This document shows, one piece after another, positions 13,804-56,504 of a DNA stretch of 64,000 nt. The stretch is from the NCBI GenBank assembly GCA_034509925.1, contig CM067532.1:6952142-7016141 (forward strand), written 5' to 3'. The translations under genes and the position numbers were made by a program. The stretch is from Hirudinaria manillensis. Its lineage: Eukaryota > Annelida > Clitellata > Hirudinida > Hirudinidae. Numbering within the stretch: position 1 is the first letter of the stretch; the number at the start of each line of letters is the position of its first letter. Below the pieces are notes generated by a model that searched no databases, was not told where the DNA came from, and worked only from the letters and a program-made list of their open reading frames with translations.

Positions 13804-16092
13804 ATGTCAGGAAAAGTTTTCATCGTCACTGGTGCCAATGCAGGCATTGGATTTGAAATAACCAAGACCCTCTGTGAGGCCGGTCATGACGTCGTCATGG
13901 CTTGTAGGAGCGAAGAAAAGACAACCAAGGCAATTGAAAAGATCAAGAAGAAGCTGCCAAATGCCCTGGCGACCTTTATGAATGTGAGCCTCAAGGACGT
14001 TTATAATTGTATCGAAAATTAGCATGTCATTTGACTTGAACTGCGCAATTTGGAAGTCAATTCGATCGTGAGATTCCCCATTATCGTGCTAATACCGTGC
14101 ACGTGATACTTCCACGCACGTGATGTTTCTCACGCTACTGCCGTCGAGATTTCTCCCATGTTGGCAAATCATGCATCCTAATGCGAATATCACTTCTTTG
14201 ACAACATCTTAAGGGTAAAATAATTGTTAACATTATTTAATAATCGCAATAATTAGTAAAAATTATTCTTTAAAGGGATTTCTTGAAAGTAAATGTTGAC
14301 AATTACTGACTGGCACTTTGAACTACCATTGATATCTGACAAAATTTAATTACCATTTCCCTTTAGCTGGACTTGTCTAGCATCGAGTCCGTCAGGAAGT
14401 TTGTGGAGGATTTCCGCGCTTCTGGGAAAAAGTTGAACGTGCTCGTCAACAATGCCGGCCTTAGCCTGAACTTCAAGGACACCAAGAGGCAGTACACGAA
14501 GGACAACTTCGAACTGACCATGGGAGTAAACCACTTAGGTAACGTGCCATGTCGGGTCGTTTCGAACCTTTCGGTTCTTCTGGGCATCTGCGGGAAAATC
14601 GCACAAGCTGGCAACCATCTAGGGCTCGTTAGAAACTCATCGGCAATTAAAACTTAATCATAAAAATTAGGCAGTCACATGATGGGCACTATTTTTGGGG
14701 TGCAATCAATCAATTAAAAGTTGACTCATAAAGGGCACCACTTGCTGCAGTTTCATTTAATGAATTTTATGCCCAATACTGCGCATTTAGCAATGAAACA
14801 TTCAATTTGTAGGCCACTTTCTCCTGACCAACCTCCTCCTGGAAGACTTAAAGAAGACGGCCAGCGAGGAAGGAGAGGCACGCGTGGTGGTAGTTACTTC
14901 GTCCATCCACGATCCTGAGGCCAACAAGAAGTGGATGGGAAGTGAGTGGCGATCATTGACTCAACTTTAATGATTTGAACTCGTAACGACCTTTGCTCGT
15001 CACTTGCAGCTGTCCAAGACTTGGATTTGGAAGACCTTTTCATGTATAAAGAGAATGCATTCACTGGCTTCCAGGCTTACAAAAATTCCAAGGCTGCCAA
15101 TCTCATGTTCACCTATGAACTCAGTCGCCAGTTGGATGGCACGAATGTCAAAGTCAATGCCGTTTGCCCAGGTAGAGATGCCAGAACCGATTTGTTTAAT
15201 TTCCTTCACGTCTTCTACTGATCACATTCATATGTCTATCTTATAAGGCATTCTTTTAAGTAAAGCCATATTTTAATCCTTGTTGAATCGAATTTCTTGA
15301 AATATTCCTAACTTTGTTCTTTAGGCTTTGTTCCAACCACGGAACTGATGAGAAATGCAGGCAAGGCCATCAAATTCTTCTGCCGCTACGTTCTCCGCTT
15401 CACAAAAATGACCAGAACGTCCCAGCAAGCTGCTTCTGCCATTGTTTCCCTGGCCACAGATGAGAAGTACAAAGGTAGAAAAAATACATTGCAGAAATAT
15501 TATATTTCTTGCCATGGATAAAGATGTCATTAACTACCTAATGCTTTTAAAATCTTCAGATGTCACAGGAAAGTACTTCAAGGATGGACAAGAAGCAAAA
15601 TCATCTGAGGAGACTTTGGATGAAGAAAAGCAGAAGAAACTCTGGCAACTGAGCGGGGGTTACACCAAACTCGAGGGATTCGAACCTCTCGAAGCCCCCG
15701 TTCCCCCGGTCGAGACTAAGCCGACGGAGGCCGAGAAGAAGGCGGAAGACGCCGCCGTGTCCGGAGACGCGACTGCCGAAGTCCCGCTCGTCAACGGAGT
15801 CAAGCAGGCCGTCGACGAGGTCAAGACGGAAGTCAAAGACATTTCCACCGATGTCATCGAGCAGGTGCAGAAGGAAGTGGCGAACGAAGTCAGCGACGTC
15901 AAAAAACAGGTCGAGGACATCCAGAAGGAGGTGACTGAAAAAATCGAAACTGGAATCACTGATCTGAAGGCTAAAACTGAAGAAATCATTGAGAAGGTGG
16001 AGACGAGCGTAAAGGACACAGTAAAAGAAACAATCGAAAACCTGGTCCCTGATAATTCTGCCCAAGAGAAACCAGTTAAAGTGGAAGAATAA
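13804..16092 (+). CDS. Short-chain dehydrogenase/reductase (retinol-dehydrogenase-like) with a long helical C-terminal extension
   Basis: Coding exons 13804-13983, 14367-14538, 14813-14941, 15010-15171, 15325-15474 and 15560-16092 join in phase to 441 residues. The N-terminal Rossmann fold has TGANAGIG (residues 9-16) for dinucleotide binding, an NNAG motif, the catalytic Ser in VVTSS and the active-site YKNSK, all typical of a classical SDR of the RDH11-14/WWOX/DHRS type. Substrate cannot be told; family members use retinoids, steroids or lipid aldehydes with NADP(H). A Lys-Leu-Trp block near residue 291 ends the usual fold. After it comes about 135 extra residues: a Pro/Ala/Glu linker, then repeated Val/Ile-Lys-Glu segments (for example VKTEVKDISTDVIEQVQKE) that should form an amphipathic, coiled-coil or lipid-surface helix. 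That tail is not part of standard family members. Confidence 0.93.
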
Positions 16093-26613: not shown

Positions 26614-27498
26614 ATGGATCATTCGTATTCTTCACGTCGCAACAAAAAACTCGACCACTCTTATTTTTCTGTTGCCAAAAAAACTCCGACAGTTGTTTTG
26701 AGGAAAGCTCAAGCTATAAAGGAGCAGATGGGACGAGAAATGTTGCCAGTTAACAAGGATCATTCTTATCACAGGCCAGTACAAACTGCTTCAATCTTAT
26801 CATCAAACAGTAGAAATGACACTGCTACATCAAGGAAATTAGAGGATCGGGAAAATAATGTTAAAAGTAAGAATGTTAAAGTAACGATAAAGTTATTTTC
26901 ATACTGTCAATATTTTTATATTTAAAATAAATTAAGTTTCAGCAAGGAAAAGAATAAAATTAAAGTGCTCACGTCTGAGAATAAAGAAATTAATTTTCCC
27001 CAAGAAAGTAACCCGCCATTGTTCTCAGAATCTGAAGAAAAATAATCACAAAGCCGGCGAAAAGAATCAAGTTACAACCGATAATTCCTTTGGTGATATG
27101 AACGTTTCTATACAATTTGAACACTCCTATCACACAAGGTTGTCCTCGAATTGTTATTCTAATTTACGACTGCTACTTTATTAAATTTATTATTTAATTT
27201 ACTAATTCACTTGCATAATTCTTAGACTGGCAAAGTGCCTTAAAGTAAAATCTGATGGCATCTGATGACTTTTAACTGATTGTTTTTAATTTCCAGGTGC
27301 CAGAGCACAAAGTCTGATGACTCTTGTGATAACATGCCCATTCTAATAGATTTAAACAAAGACTGTGATATCGGTGGGGACGTCCACTCGGCAGACCCTT
27401 CGTACTTTTATAATTTCGTGCATGACCATGATTACGTTTCTCTAGAGCTATTTCCTTATTCGAATGTTCGCCTTTCTTCAGATAAAGTTTTCTCTTGA
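26614..27498 (+). CDS. Small basic protein with five HCF-1-binding-type (D/E)HxY motifs; no known family
   Basis: Three exons join in phase (26614-26866, 26943-27138, 27297-27498) to 216 residues. The start ATG directly precedes the first motif. DHSY occurs at residues 2-5, 14-17 and 49-52, EHSY at 144-147 and DHDY at 193-196. (D/E)HxY is the established HCF-1-binding motif, recognised by the Kelch domain of host cell factor in transcription factors such as E2F, THAP and CREB3-type proteins. Between motifs lie Lys/Arg-rich runs (TRKRIKLK; RLRIKK) that could act as nuclear localisation or nucleic-acid-binding segments. The C-terminal third is acidic and aromatic, resembling an activation domain. 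No DNA-binding domain is visible. A nuclear HCF partner or adaptor is inferred. An AATAAA at 27711-27716 follows. Splice sites are strong (AAAA|GTAAGA; TTTCAG; TTTCCAG). Confidence 0.75.
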
Positions 27499-27655
27499 AA
27501 AGGCCAATTTATTTATTTATTATTTGTTTATTTTGTGTTAAGTTATTTTGTGTGTTTGTTGTTCCGATTCATTATTTCCAGTGACTTGATTTTCACTGGC
27601 AACCAAACTTAACTGAGTCACAAAACTAGGCTGAAGCATTTCTTGTGAAACTGTT

Positions 27656-27661
27656 TTTATT
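27656..27661 (-). terminator. Candidate IFT22 polyadenylation signal (minus-strand AATAAA)
   Basis: TTTATT on the plus strand reads AATAAA on the minus strand, about 118 bp beyond the IFT22 stop. A second one lies in the TTTATT run at about 27508-27528. Either makes the two 3' UTRs overlap. Confidence 0.4.
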
Positions 27662-27710
27662 TGTTGTGTTGTTTGTCTTGGTGACACTTTTAAAGCCATA
27701 AAATAGAATT

Positions 27711-27716
27711 AATAAA
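27711..27716 (+). terminator. Polyadenylation signal AATAAA of the five-motif protein gene
   Basis: Canonical AATAAA 213 bp after the stop codon and 63 bp before the IFT22 stop codon on the opposite strand. Confidence 0.5.
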
Positions 27717-27778
27717 TATTGTACACAGTATTGTTCAATCAGTACAATTGTCATCATAATGTGGAATGACCATGAAAA

Positions 27779-28589
27779 TTACATGTTGAGGAGATCCAAT
27801 TCTTCTTGGTCTCTTCTCTGGGATACTTCCTTAAAAATCGTGGCAAAGTAATTGTTGAAGTCCCTCCTCACGAGATCCAAGTCGTCGTCTGGACGCATTT
27901 TAATCACTGCGAGAGACGACATTACTCCAGCTGGAGCAACGTTTTTGTAAGATTTACCAGCTTAGGATTGTATAAATGTCTTCTACTTACCGGCTTGACC
28001 GTGTCGCTTCCTGGAACCTTTGAAATTTTCAAAAATTACGCATTGCCTATCACGTAGACCTTGCTGTTGCACAAAGTAGTCAAACCTGTTAAATTATGAA
28101 TAAAGTCCAATTAATTGGGCAATCAAAAAAATTAAAATGGTGTCAGGTGGCAGACCAGGGACACAATTCTTTGCTTTCTGTTTCTGAAGGATCGTAGACA
28201 AAAATGGCTCCTTGAGCATCTTTGGCCATAGCTGGCCAACATGTTGAAAAACTACCAATGGTTTGAACTTTGTTAGGCCTCTCTAAAATTCAATTGCAAT
28301 TTTTTTAAATTTAGGATATTGATTACCTTTTATCTCCACTGCAGTCCCATAACTCAATGTCCATTTTTATGGATTTGTTTCCATCTTGATTTTGAGTTTC
28401 AAATTCAATAATTCTGCACCCTACAGTTGGTTTGTAAGTTGTGTCAAGCCCTTCTGACAACTCGGATAGAAAATTCGAAAGACTAGTTTTTCCTGCCTTC
28501 AGAAAATCTCTGATAAAATAACAAAAAAAATCACATTTTAAACAAATGCAAACCTTTTGTGGACCGATAACTAATACTTTTGCCTTCAT
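27779..28589 (-). CDS. IFT22: IFT22 (RABL5), small-GTPase-like intraflagellar transport subunit
   Basis: Five exons join in phase: 28554-28589, 28327-28496, 28165-28251, 27991-28085, 27779-27930, giving 179 residues against about 185 in vertebrates. The start reads MKAKVLVIGPQKAGKT, a complete P-loop (residues 9-16) interrupted by the first intron after PQK. The next exon carries the IFT22-typical PTVGCRIIEFE and ELWDCSGD (switch II WDxxGD). Then CWPAMAKDAQGAIFVYDP and FDYFVQQQGLRDRQC follow, diagnostic of IFT22 rather than Rab. As in the family there is no canonical NKxD guanine-specificity motif and no prenylation cysteine. IFT22 is a subunit of IFT-B and acts in cilium assembly, so the organism makes cilia. 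It is divergent with LIS1 and convergent with the five-motif gene. Confidence 0.94.
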
Positions 28590-29287
28590 GTCGCTAGACT
28601 GTCTCGTAAACGAGTCGGTATTGCTAATGGCAACTGCTGCGGAATTCGTTTTTTAGTAACTAATTTTAATATAGAGATATTTTGACTGTTATTTAACAAA
28701 TATTAATTCAAAAATTCGCTTTAGAAGCATGGTAATTTCATATTCATAATGAAAAAAATTAAGCGCTGTACATATTTTGACGTGTAGGAAGTTGTCCTTT
28801 TTTATTACAATATTTGTTCAACAAAGTTGTTGATCCCGGTCTAGGTTTGTTGTGAATTTTAGAGCAAATAATTCCTTGTGAAATATTATTTATCTTCTAT
28901 GTTAATTGTGTCTTCCGACTAAGTTCTGCGCCTTGTTGCAATTGATTCGCGCTTGAGGCTACTAATTTATGCCCAACATTAATGCTTATGATTCACGGTA
29001 GATGTTAAAACATAACAGTTAACTTTCTCTCCTGTGATTGAGGATTTCCATCTATTTATCCATTTTTATTTGTGTTTCACGTACTGGTTTAAGGCTTGGG
29101 TAACTCCCGACGTCTGATTGATATTAAGCGATGTCTTGATAAAACAGTTTCGTTTGTGTTGTATAAGGCCTTATGACGCTTATTGATTACAGGTATATCA
29201 AATGTTTCTTTGTCTGTCAGAGTGATTATCCTGTAAGCCACCTCTTGAATTTTAATACAACCGAGTCCGGGTCAACACGCAATCACG
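28590..29287. promoter_or_regulatory. Shared divergent upstream region of IFT22 and LIS1
   Basis: Only 698 bp separate the IFT22 start ATG (minus) and the LIS1 start ATG (plus), so both promoters lie here. The sequence is AT-rich without a clear TATA pair. Any 5' UTR introns of LIS1 cannot be excluded. Confidence 0.6.
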
Positions 29288-32200
29288 ATGGTGCTCTCTC
29301 AAAGACAACGTGAAGAATTGTGCGTTTTTCTGATTTAATTCCAATTATGCAAATACTTTCTGTGTTTATTTTTCTTATATTCAGAAACAAGGCTGTGGCC
29401 GATTACCTTTGTTCTAATGGATATGAAAGCACATATGCAGAATTCAAAAGAGAAGCTAGTTTGGTATTTATTGCTTATGCTCTTAGTTTTTTTCTGAAGC
29501 TTTTAGTTGGGTATTTTAAAATTCGGCCTTAAATTGAGGCTTCTCAATTTGCTGTTTTACTTTTTCCAGCCATCTGAACTAGAAAACAAGTTCTCAGGTT
29601 TACTAGAAAAAAAGTGGACGTCTGTGATAAGATTACAAAAAAAAGTAATGGTTTGTTTGTGTCATCGACTGGAATTTTAAAAAGAGGCATTATTGTAATC
29701 CGTGCCGAACAGGTAGTCGATATGGAAGCAATGTTGTCTGCGAGAACCAACGATACTCAAGCACCTCTCCCCGGTAAAGATCGTCAAAATCCATCCGATT
29801 GGATCCCCCGTCCCCCGGAAAAGTACCGCCTCACGGGACACAGAGGAGCCGTGACAAAAGTTCTTTTCCATCCTGTTTTCAATGCCATCGTTACTGCAAG
29901 TGAGGATGCAACCATCAAAGTAAGCAAGAGAAGTTGTTGAAAGTTTGTTGTTAATTAATTGTTTTATTTCAACAAAACATATATATATATGTATATATAT
30001 GTTTTTTATTATGTTGATTTATTTTGTGCAAATTCAAATGTAAGTCTGCTTCAACAAAATATATTTTTTGTTATTTTTTTGTTATATTTTGTTGATACAT
30101 TTTGTGACAAATTAAAATGCAAGTCTGCTTACATAATTACTTATTTCACTTAGGCTTGTTTTTTTGTGGTAAAATTAACCTTTTGTTCATTTGGATGAAA
30201 TCAAAGTAAATCTGATTTTTGCTTGTTGTGATAGCTTTGGGATTATGAGACTGGAGACTATGAAAGAACTATGAGAGGTCACACAGACTCTGTTCAGGAC
30301 TTAGCTTTTGACCAGAGTGGCAAATGGCTAGGTAACATTTAACATGTTTTTTTCTTATTCAAGTTATTGTTGGATTTTGAATGGTTGTCACCCATTAATA
30401 TATCTAAAGTTTTAAACTTAAAATCTCTAACTTGCATTGAAGTGTTGCAATTCAAATTGATTTTGGTTAATTTCCAGTTTCGTCTTCTGCTGACACGACC
30501 GTCAAACTTTGGGATTTCAATGCTTACGAATGCGTGAAAACAATGAGAGGTACTTTCGAAATTTCAATTATAATTGGACTAATAACATATGCAGAATTCA
30601 TAAGTTTAAGTTTCCTCTGATGTAAGACTTTCTAAATTATTTTTTATCAACTCTAATATGATCTCATTACATTATATTAATGTATCATTACATTGTCTCT
30701 TTGTTTCTATTACTGCAATGCATCTTGCTTTCTTTGATGCCACAAATTTCTCCAAGTAATTCAATCAACAAACTGTCAACAACCATCATCAGTTTAAGTC
30801 AAATGGAGGTCTTACTTTGAATTTCATTTAAGGCCACGATCACAACGTCTCGAGCGTCACCTTCATGCCCAGCGGTGATTTTGTGGTCACTGCTTCAAGG
30901 GACAAGACCATTAAAATCTGGGAGGTTTCAACTGGGTGAGTTTCAATCGCTTTAAATTTAACTCGGATGATCGAAGGATTAGATTCGTGCTGCTCTAGTT
31001 CAAGGAAGAATAGAAAATATTACTATGGGTGTAGAATTTTAACTGCCTGCGATTGTCGTGCAATTAGTAAAGCTGGAAAAATTACATTTAAGTGTTTTTT
31101 TTATAAAGATATTGCGTTAAGACGCTCACCGGACACAGAGAATGGGTGAGGATGGTGAGGATAAACTCTGACGGCAGTCTATTGGCCAGCTGCTCCAACG
31201 ATCAGACAGTGAGAGTTTGGGCCATCAACACTTGGGAATGCAAGGCGGAACTGAGAGGTCACGACCACGTGGTGGAGTGCATCACCTGGGCCACCGATCC
31301 TGCCGTGCCCGTCATTTGCGAGGCTGCGAACATCGACGTTAGTTTTTTTTGAGTTTCGTTCAGAGTCATCTTGTGGTCTGACTTTGCCGTTTGGCTTTGT
31401 GGTGTCGTGTCGCGACATTACTACTAATAGTAATAGTAATAATAATAATATTGATAATAATAATAATAATAATAGTAATAGTAATAATAATGTAATAATA
31501 ATGGTAGCAATGTAGGCTAAACATTGAACTGGATTCAGCCTGTCAACAATGAGAGCATCATGTAGTATGTACTGTTGTGCATGCTATTATTATGAATGTA
31601 TCAATTTGAAAATGCCATTGTATTGCTCATGACACAATGACTATTGTTGTGTGCAACAGAGCAATTTATTCACAGGTTCTTCTGTGCAAACATGGAGATG
31701 ACAGGCATTGTTGTGTGTGAATGAATGAATGAATGAATGAATGAATGAATGAATGAATGAATGAATGAATGTTAAGCAAAGGACAATTGATTTCAGTTGT
31801 TGCTGTACATTTATCATTTGCAGATGAAGAAAGTCCAGAAACCGGGTCCGTTTCTGGTTTCCGGATCAAGGGACAAGACGATCAGAGTCTGGGACGTGAC
31901 GTCGGAAATGTGTCTCTTCACTCTGGTCGGTCTTCGAAGTCGGGCTTTTCGGTCGATCGACCTTCGACCTACTTAGAGCCGTTTATCAAAAGTTATTAGT
32001 TTACACGTAAACGAGTCCTCTTTTCCGACGAGCAGATTGGACACGACAACTGGGTCAGGGCGATCTCGTTCCATCCGAGCGGAAAGTACATCCTGAGCGG
32101 AGGCGATGACAGGACTTTGAGAGTTTGGGATGTTGCGAACAAACGAAACTGCAAGACCCTGGATGCTCACGAGCACTTTGTCTGCACGTTAGGTCGGTCT

Positions 32201-32746
32201 CCGGATTTGATTTGCCGAACGTGATGCCAGGGATTGTTGTTAAGTGTAGTAATCGTTAGAATACAATGCTATGTAACTGTATAGTGCAAGGTACCAATGT
32301 TAGGCATTACTGATATTAAAATTGAATAGTATTCATTGTGGTTCTAGAATAGAGGTCAAATACTATTGTGTATTTGTTAATTAGATGTTGTAGAATAAAG
32401 TTTAATTAGTGGAATGTATTATTACGATAAAGTAATGTATTATTACGATAAAGTAATGTATTATTACGATAAAGTAATGTATTATTACTATAAAGTATTC
32501 AGAGGTTTTTTGTTACTTCTGCCATTATAATAAATTATGATGACCATTGGATGATGAAAATGACATGTCAACAACACTTCTTTCATTGGATGGATGGACA
32601 GGTGGTGAATGTGTATTAACTTGTTAAACATTTAATGATAAAATGTTGTAATTCACGAGTCGTCGCTTTCAGATTTTCACAAGACAACACCGTACGTCAT
32701 AACGGGAAGTCTCGACAGCACCATCAAAGTCTGGCAGTGCCGTTAG
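29288..32746 (+). CDS. PAFAH1B1: LIS1 / PAFAH1B1: dynein regulator with LisH and seven WD40 repeats
   Basis: Eleven exons join in phase to 408 residues (human 410): 29288-29319, 29385-29463, 29570-29644, 29713-29919, 30235-30331, 30478-30549, 30833-30935, 31109-31337, 31824-31925, 32036-32192, 32673-32746. It opens [19 protein letters not shown], the near-invariant LIS1 N-terminus with its LisH dimerisation domain, followed by a coiled coil ([14 protein letters not shown]) and IPRPPEKY. Seven WD40 blades then follow in order (for example [60 protein letters not shown]) ending in VWQCR. LIS1 binds the dynein motor, relieves its autoinhibition with NDE1/NDEL1 and also forms the regulatory subunit of the platelet-activating-factor acetylhydrolase 1B complex. 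The E8/E9 boundary falls in the blade-6 loop. Confidence 0.98.
31423..31503. repeat. (TAA/TAG)n microsatellite in a LIS1 intron
   Basis: Imperfect AAT/AGT trinucleotide run in the intron between LIS1 exons 8 and 9. Confidence 0.85.
31716..31770. repeat. (GAAT)n tetranucleotide microsatellite in a LIS1 intron
   Basis: About thirteen perfect TGAA/GAAT units, 54 bp upstream of the LIS1 exon 9 acceptor. Confidence 0.95.
32411..32495. repeat. 21-bp minisatellite (about four units) in the last LIS1 intron
   Basis: A unit that begins GTAATGTATTATTACGATAA and repeats every 21 bp, about four times, the last unit with a CGA to CTA change. It lies between LIS1 exons 10 and 11. Confidence 0.9.

Positions 32747-34995: not shown

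Positions 34996-56504
<21,509 letters not shown>

Follow-up and report, generated by a model that had tools for sequence, protein, structure and literature searches.

A three-exon gene of the leech Hirudinaria manillensis (positions 26614-27498 on the forward strand of the window, i.e., of the whole 64,000-nucleotide stretch of DNA that was analyzed) reads as a single open frame (216 codons and a stop) and carries five tetrapeptides of the pattern bound by the transcriptional coregulator HCF. The encoded protein is probably an HCF partner of the type that uses the HCF-1 binding motif (HBM), in an unusual multi-site form, as predicted from the motif and from the receptor found in the same genome. 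In our preferred reading, to which we give a probability of roughly 0.57, a real gene that is fast-evolving or lineage-specific codes for a protein of 25 kDa that is probably nuclear and for the most part disordered, and that would mainly serve to bind the Kelch domain of HCF through several interchangeable (D/E)HxY motifs. The array of motifs, a gene model that fits the local splice sites and an HCF with a conserved pocket are directly established (Table 1 and below).

Table 1 Features of the five-motif gene in window coordinates.
Feature	Position	Strand	Description
Exon 1	26614..26866	+	ATG start at 26614; DHSY at residues 2, 14 and 49
Intron 1	26867..26942	+	Donor GTAAGA (score 5.3), acceptor TTTCAG
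Exon 2	26943..27138	+	EHSY at residue 144; most of the basic stretch 85-108
Intron 2	27139..27296	+	Donor GTTGTC (score 7.2), acceptor TTTCCAG
Exon 3 and stop	27297..27498	+	Acidic aromatic tail; DHDY at residue 193
Possible polyadenylation signal AATAAA	27711..27716	+	
Motif 1, DHSY	26617..26628	+	Residue 2, exon 1
Motif 2, DHSY	26653..26664	+	Residue 14, exon 1
Motif 3, DHSY	26758..26769	+	Residue 49, exon 1
Motif 4, EHSY	27119..27130	+	Residue 144, exon 2
Motif 5, DHDY	27424..27435	+	Residue 193, exon 3

The original prediction, made from the letters of this DNA, had counted DHSY three times and EHSY and DHDY once each in 216 residues, had placed them across all three exons and had judged five copies to be far above chance. 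All of this is borne out, with every copy in frame, three of them in exon 1 and one in each of the other two exons. From the composition of the protein 0.047 motifs are expected (Poisson probability of at least five copies, about 1.7e-9). Among 300,000 composition-preserving shuffles, 286,261 contained no motif, 13,476 contained one, 261 two and 2 three, and none contained more than three. Of four control patterns made by scrambling or reversing the motif, none occurs in the protein. When the window was read in all six frames (about 128,000 codons), 5 of the 8 occurrences of (D/E)HxY fell within this gene, and the sacsin frames farther downstream (4,422 residues) hold one. A set of 120,116 bases, read on both strands, contains 13 occurrences, five within the gene and eight elsewhere; this set comprises the window and 15 loci from other searches (two of them overlapping) and is not a random sample. 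At the background rate, about 6e-5 such stretches would be expected in 148 Mb (the genome measures 148.4 Mb in 23 contigs), a figure to be read as an order of magnitude only. A motif-blind repeat test, in which 4-mers were taken as alike if at least three of four letters agreed, returned DHSY as the top 4-mer with 6 copies including itself; this test is weaker, as 3 of 300 shuffles also reached six with some 4-mer. At the DNA level, DHSY followed by Ser showed no enrichment genome-wide (20 matches vs. 16 for the reversed pattern).

Likeness among the five sites ends at the tetrapeptide. When the sites were compared over 21 columns (-8 to +12), the four motif columns agreed (p ≤ 0.0016 each) but the flanking columns did not, except for a weak preference two residues past the Tyr (p = 0.02). 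The codons of the five copies differ as well. Because likeness is confined to the tetrapeptide and the codons differ, the data argue against exon duplication, and the earlier view that duplication of a single exon does not explain the array holds. A recent duplication of an exon or of DNA was likewise rejected as the source of the motifs, given the differing codons and unalignable flanks. The array has the look of a short linear motif retained or acquired at the level of the protein, unlike a duplicated segment. The variable position x is Ser in 4 of 5 copies (column p = 0.0016), and the resulting pattern, [DE]H[SD]Y, agrees with the HBM, (D/E)HxY.

HCF links transcription factors to chromatin enzymes via this motif of four residues, and its single Kelch domain serves many partners. 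The leech genome yielded one HCF locus, on contig C10, which accounts for 7 of 8 matches; the remaining match, on C8, is weak. The Kelch domain is identical to that of human HCF-1 at 246 of 343 positions (72%), and the pocket residues P134, L138, S225 and L257 are kept. According to the cited passages, the consensus of the HBM is (D/E)HxY (PMC7793627, PMC2082077, PMC6944463), and a validated model places the Tyr of the motif in a deep pocket of the HCF-1 propeller (PMC10883280). As these passages describe it, HBM binding is blocked or weakened by P134S (PMC6944463), and in human HCF-1 the binding of an HBM partner is strongly reduced by L138F or by L257F, S225N leaving it unabolished (PMC10883280); fly and worm HCF retain VP16-complex activity (PMC2082077, in the part cited). 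Due to the kept Kelch pocket and the conserved activity of the fly and worm proteins, the leech very likely has an HCF that can read the motif. With P134, L138 and L257 kept, the Kelch domain is predicted from its sequence to accommodate the motif.

Outside the motifs, the protein offers few recognizable features. A search of Pfam and NCBIfam with E values up to 10 returned no domain for the 216 residues; Pfam gave no match to the THAP zinc-binding domain (E up to 10) and none to the E2F DNA-binding domain. That no DNA-binding domain would be recognized had been anticipated, and Pfam indeed gave no match of any kind. The basic patches and the acidic aromatic tail described beforehand are also real, with a net charge of +11 over residues 85-108 and a pI of 5.1 for residues 115-216; the front and middle of the chain have pI values of 10.2 and 11.4, followed by 5.1 at the end. 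The Lys/Arg-rich stretch 85-108 could serve nuclear entry. FoldIndex, a sequence-based score, is negative in 11 of 12 segments of the protein, and most of the chain is predicted to be unfolded.

Known HBM partners of HCF-1 in the cited passages are VP16, CREBZF, E2F, THAP7, THAP11 and MYC (PMC7793627, PMC6944463, PMC2082077, PMC10883280). The leech protein resembles them in the same (D/E)HxY motif, here in five copies, and in the HCF Kelch pocket encoded by its genome. It differs in that these passages describe one motif in each of the partners, in having no Pfam domain, and in that its binding is predicted. The claim that most known partners carry one motif fits the partners of those passages. 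For the ASXL trans-frame products, competition for HCF-1 via an HBM has been proposed, and EH[N/S]Y is conserved throughout vertebrates, according to the passage cited (PMC5644247). In contrast to that single vertebrate-conserved motif, the leech protein has five motifs and no relatives were found. A literature search for proteins with several HBMs, in which few subscription papers were covered, yielded no such regulator among the matches listed. Another point of comparison is HCFC1R1/HPIP, a small, adaptor-like human binder of the HCF-1 propeller that has one HBM (DHPY) and is not known to have a DNA-binding domain. The leech protein is like HPIP in small size, predicted adaptor-like character, possession of an HBM and lack of a recognized DNA-binding domain; however, it has five motifs instead of one DHPY and shows no sequence similarity (BLASTP E = 13).

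One explanation for the array that does not involve HCF is that [DE]H[SD]Y is real and selected but serves another partner, the match to the HBM being coincidental. Candidates would be a metal site, a propeller other than that of HCF, or an enzyme that modifies the Ser or Tyr (a kinase or a phosphatase); taken together, we consider them unlikely. The Ser in four of the five copies stands at a position that HCF leaves free, and HCF binding needs no Ser, which would favor such a partner, although the Ser could also be ancestral or favored by HCF. Furthermore, no HBM was confirmed at the E2F, THAP and SET loci of this genome. Against a foreign partner speak the presence of both D and E, the alternatives allowed by the HBM, and the presence of an HCF with its pocket.

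The E2F, THAP and SET loci used as controls span only about 1.5 kb to either side of the matches. Matches to E2F are on C1 and C8, and none of the six E2F loci carries the motif on the match strand. The same holds for 6 of 7 THAP loci; the seventh (L035) has a DHQY outside the THAP frame. This DHQY (position 949 of the locus, contig C5, plus strand) lies within a short open stretch some 500 bases ahead of the THAP-like frame and could belong to an upstream exon or be a chance occurrence. Five of the 25 SET loci carry a motif, in three distinct places, namely EHHY inside a SET domain (L049), EHVY (L053, L058) and EHCY (L055, L056), of which none is convincing as an HBM. The tail of the E2F gene on C1, encoded in its last exon (L027 1531-1611), reads SDKDYNFNLDDNEGVCDLFD, with DKDY; the C-terminal HBM is absent and the pocket-protein motif is kept. 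Human E2F4 reads DHDY, with His where the leech tail has Lys. The lack of a convincing HBM in these other candidate partners is not fatal to our reading, because E2F of C. elegans is also without the motif, as stated in the cited passage (PMC2082077). According to the passages cited, a protein may carry an HBM and still fail to bind (PMC6944463), and SET-24 of C. elegans has no HBM yet binds the Kelch domain (PMC12886896).

If the protein binds HCF through several motifs, as we prefer, each motif would insert its Tyr and His into the Kelch pocket used by known HBM partners. Several sites per chain would lead to higher apparent affinity through rebinding, and one chain could hold more than one HCF; as for expression, disorder, nuclear site and effect, we infer this binding and its stoichiometry from the sequences. 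The linkers between successive motifs measure 8, 31, 91 and 45 residues. Sites 1 and 2, only 8 residues or at most about 30 angstroms apart, would therefore more probably act as alternatives than as side-by-side docking sites, whereas sites 3, 4 and 5 could be occupied together owing to the longer later gaps. About four propellers per chain would be the likely upper limit. As no DNA-binding domain was recognized, the protein may either compete for HCF complexes or bridge them. A more ambitious version, in which the protein is a dedicated HCF hub, a disordered chain that holds several HCFs by their Kelch domains and thereby clusters or titrates complexes of different partners, we regard as doubtful.

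The protein could also be an ordinary single-site ligand of HCF, in which one or two motifs bind, the rest are near-neutral and no clustering occurs. Known partners act through one motif in the passages of the cited work, and sites 1 and 2 are probably too close for two side-by-side propellers. However, the tetrapeptide is kept although codons differ among the copies, and the motifs are distributed over all three exons, so that we consider a single functional site improbable.

The array would contain fewer true motifs if the gene model were wrong, with exon 3, alone or together with exon 2, extraneous or the stretch untranslated. Reading through from exon 2 leads to a stop at 27181 and to the loss of DHDY, and the donor of intron 2, GTTGTC, is unusual and poor by general splice rules. 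To judge donors by the standards of this genome, a matrix was built from 21 of its introns, ten from LIS1 (window 29288-32744), four from IFT22 (about 27782-28590) and seven from HCF (L021), obtained by intron-aware alignment of human LIS1, IFT22 and HCF-1 Kelch-region sequences to the genome. On this scale GTTGTC is the top-scoring GT between 26850 and 27290. The scores of both donors of the five-motif gene, 5.3 and 7.2, compare with 3.1-9.5 for the known donors and 0.0-8.3 for the same donors when left out, and the LIS1, IFT22 and HCF introns themselves include donors that are loose after the GT (GTTCCA, GTTCGC, GTCGGT, GTCTGC). Codon usage is no better than that of non-coding DNA and counts mildly against a real gene: exons 1, 2 and 3 score -0.091, -0.088 and -0.029 bits per codon, relative to a median of -0.091 for 6,465 stop-free stretches presumed to be non-coding and a range of -0.025 to 0.27 for six LIS1 exons. 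Motifs in the predicted frame of every exon would nevertheless be unlikely to arise by chance, and with the local fit of the intron 2 donor this renders a wrong model very improbable. A chance open frame was set down as unlikely because of the motif statistics and the splice fit, codon usage being of no help here. An HCF mimic of viral origin was another candidate, given the motif in VP16; it was set aside, with no relative among the viral contigs searched and with animal genes as neighbors.

Searches of the PDB, of prokaryote genomes and of viral contigs returned no relative of the 216-residue protein, and the search of its own genome found, besides the gene, a single weak match. This putative paralogue, at C7:7805126-7805335 (E = 0.108), was rejected, its open frame having no motif on the match strand. 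A second match encoding HSYHTR, on C12, was discarded too; it lies in simple-repeat surroundings without (D/E)HxY, and about four matches of the HSYHTR type are expected by chance by simple arithmetic. Since the collections searched were the own genome, prokaryotes and viruses, they say little on the age of the gene, and, with no orthologue or paralogue found, selection on the motifs is indicated by nothing beyond the copies themselves. Pending relatives or a transcript, the case is one gene in one animal. If true, a natural five-site ligand would make competition among partners and clustering of HCF directly testable.

Upstream of the five-motif gene lies an FGD-like gene encoding RhoGEF and FYVE domains; downstream follow IFT22 on the opposite strand, LIS1 and sacsin. 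The five-motif gene and IFT22 are arranged tail to tail with about 283 bases between them (window 27499-27781), and AATAAA at 27711 on the plus strand together with four on the minus strand (27508-27661) suggests overlapping 3' ends. Elsewhere in the window, an open frame at 52123-52893 (+) has no Pfam match; it resembles the end of an R2-type retroelement. At 15412-16089 (+), a frame of 226 residues shows a weak apolipoprotein-like match under the curated cut-off. The mitochondrial COX1 region also has a chromosomal copy (L036, C9:3024946-3029286), which differs at 8 of 2,871 bases from the mitochondrial contig (L037, C23:1-2871) and is either a nuclear copy of recent origin or a join made in assembly. 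GH6 had no match; as this search was silent everywhere, it excludes nothing about the taxon. COX1 points to a bilaterian, perhaps a lophotrochozoan, since it is best read with ATA as Met and AGR as Ser, judged by eye against known sequences.
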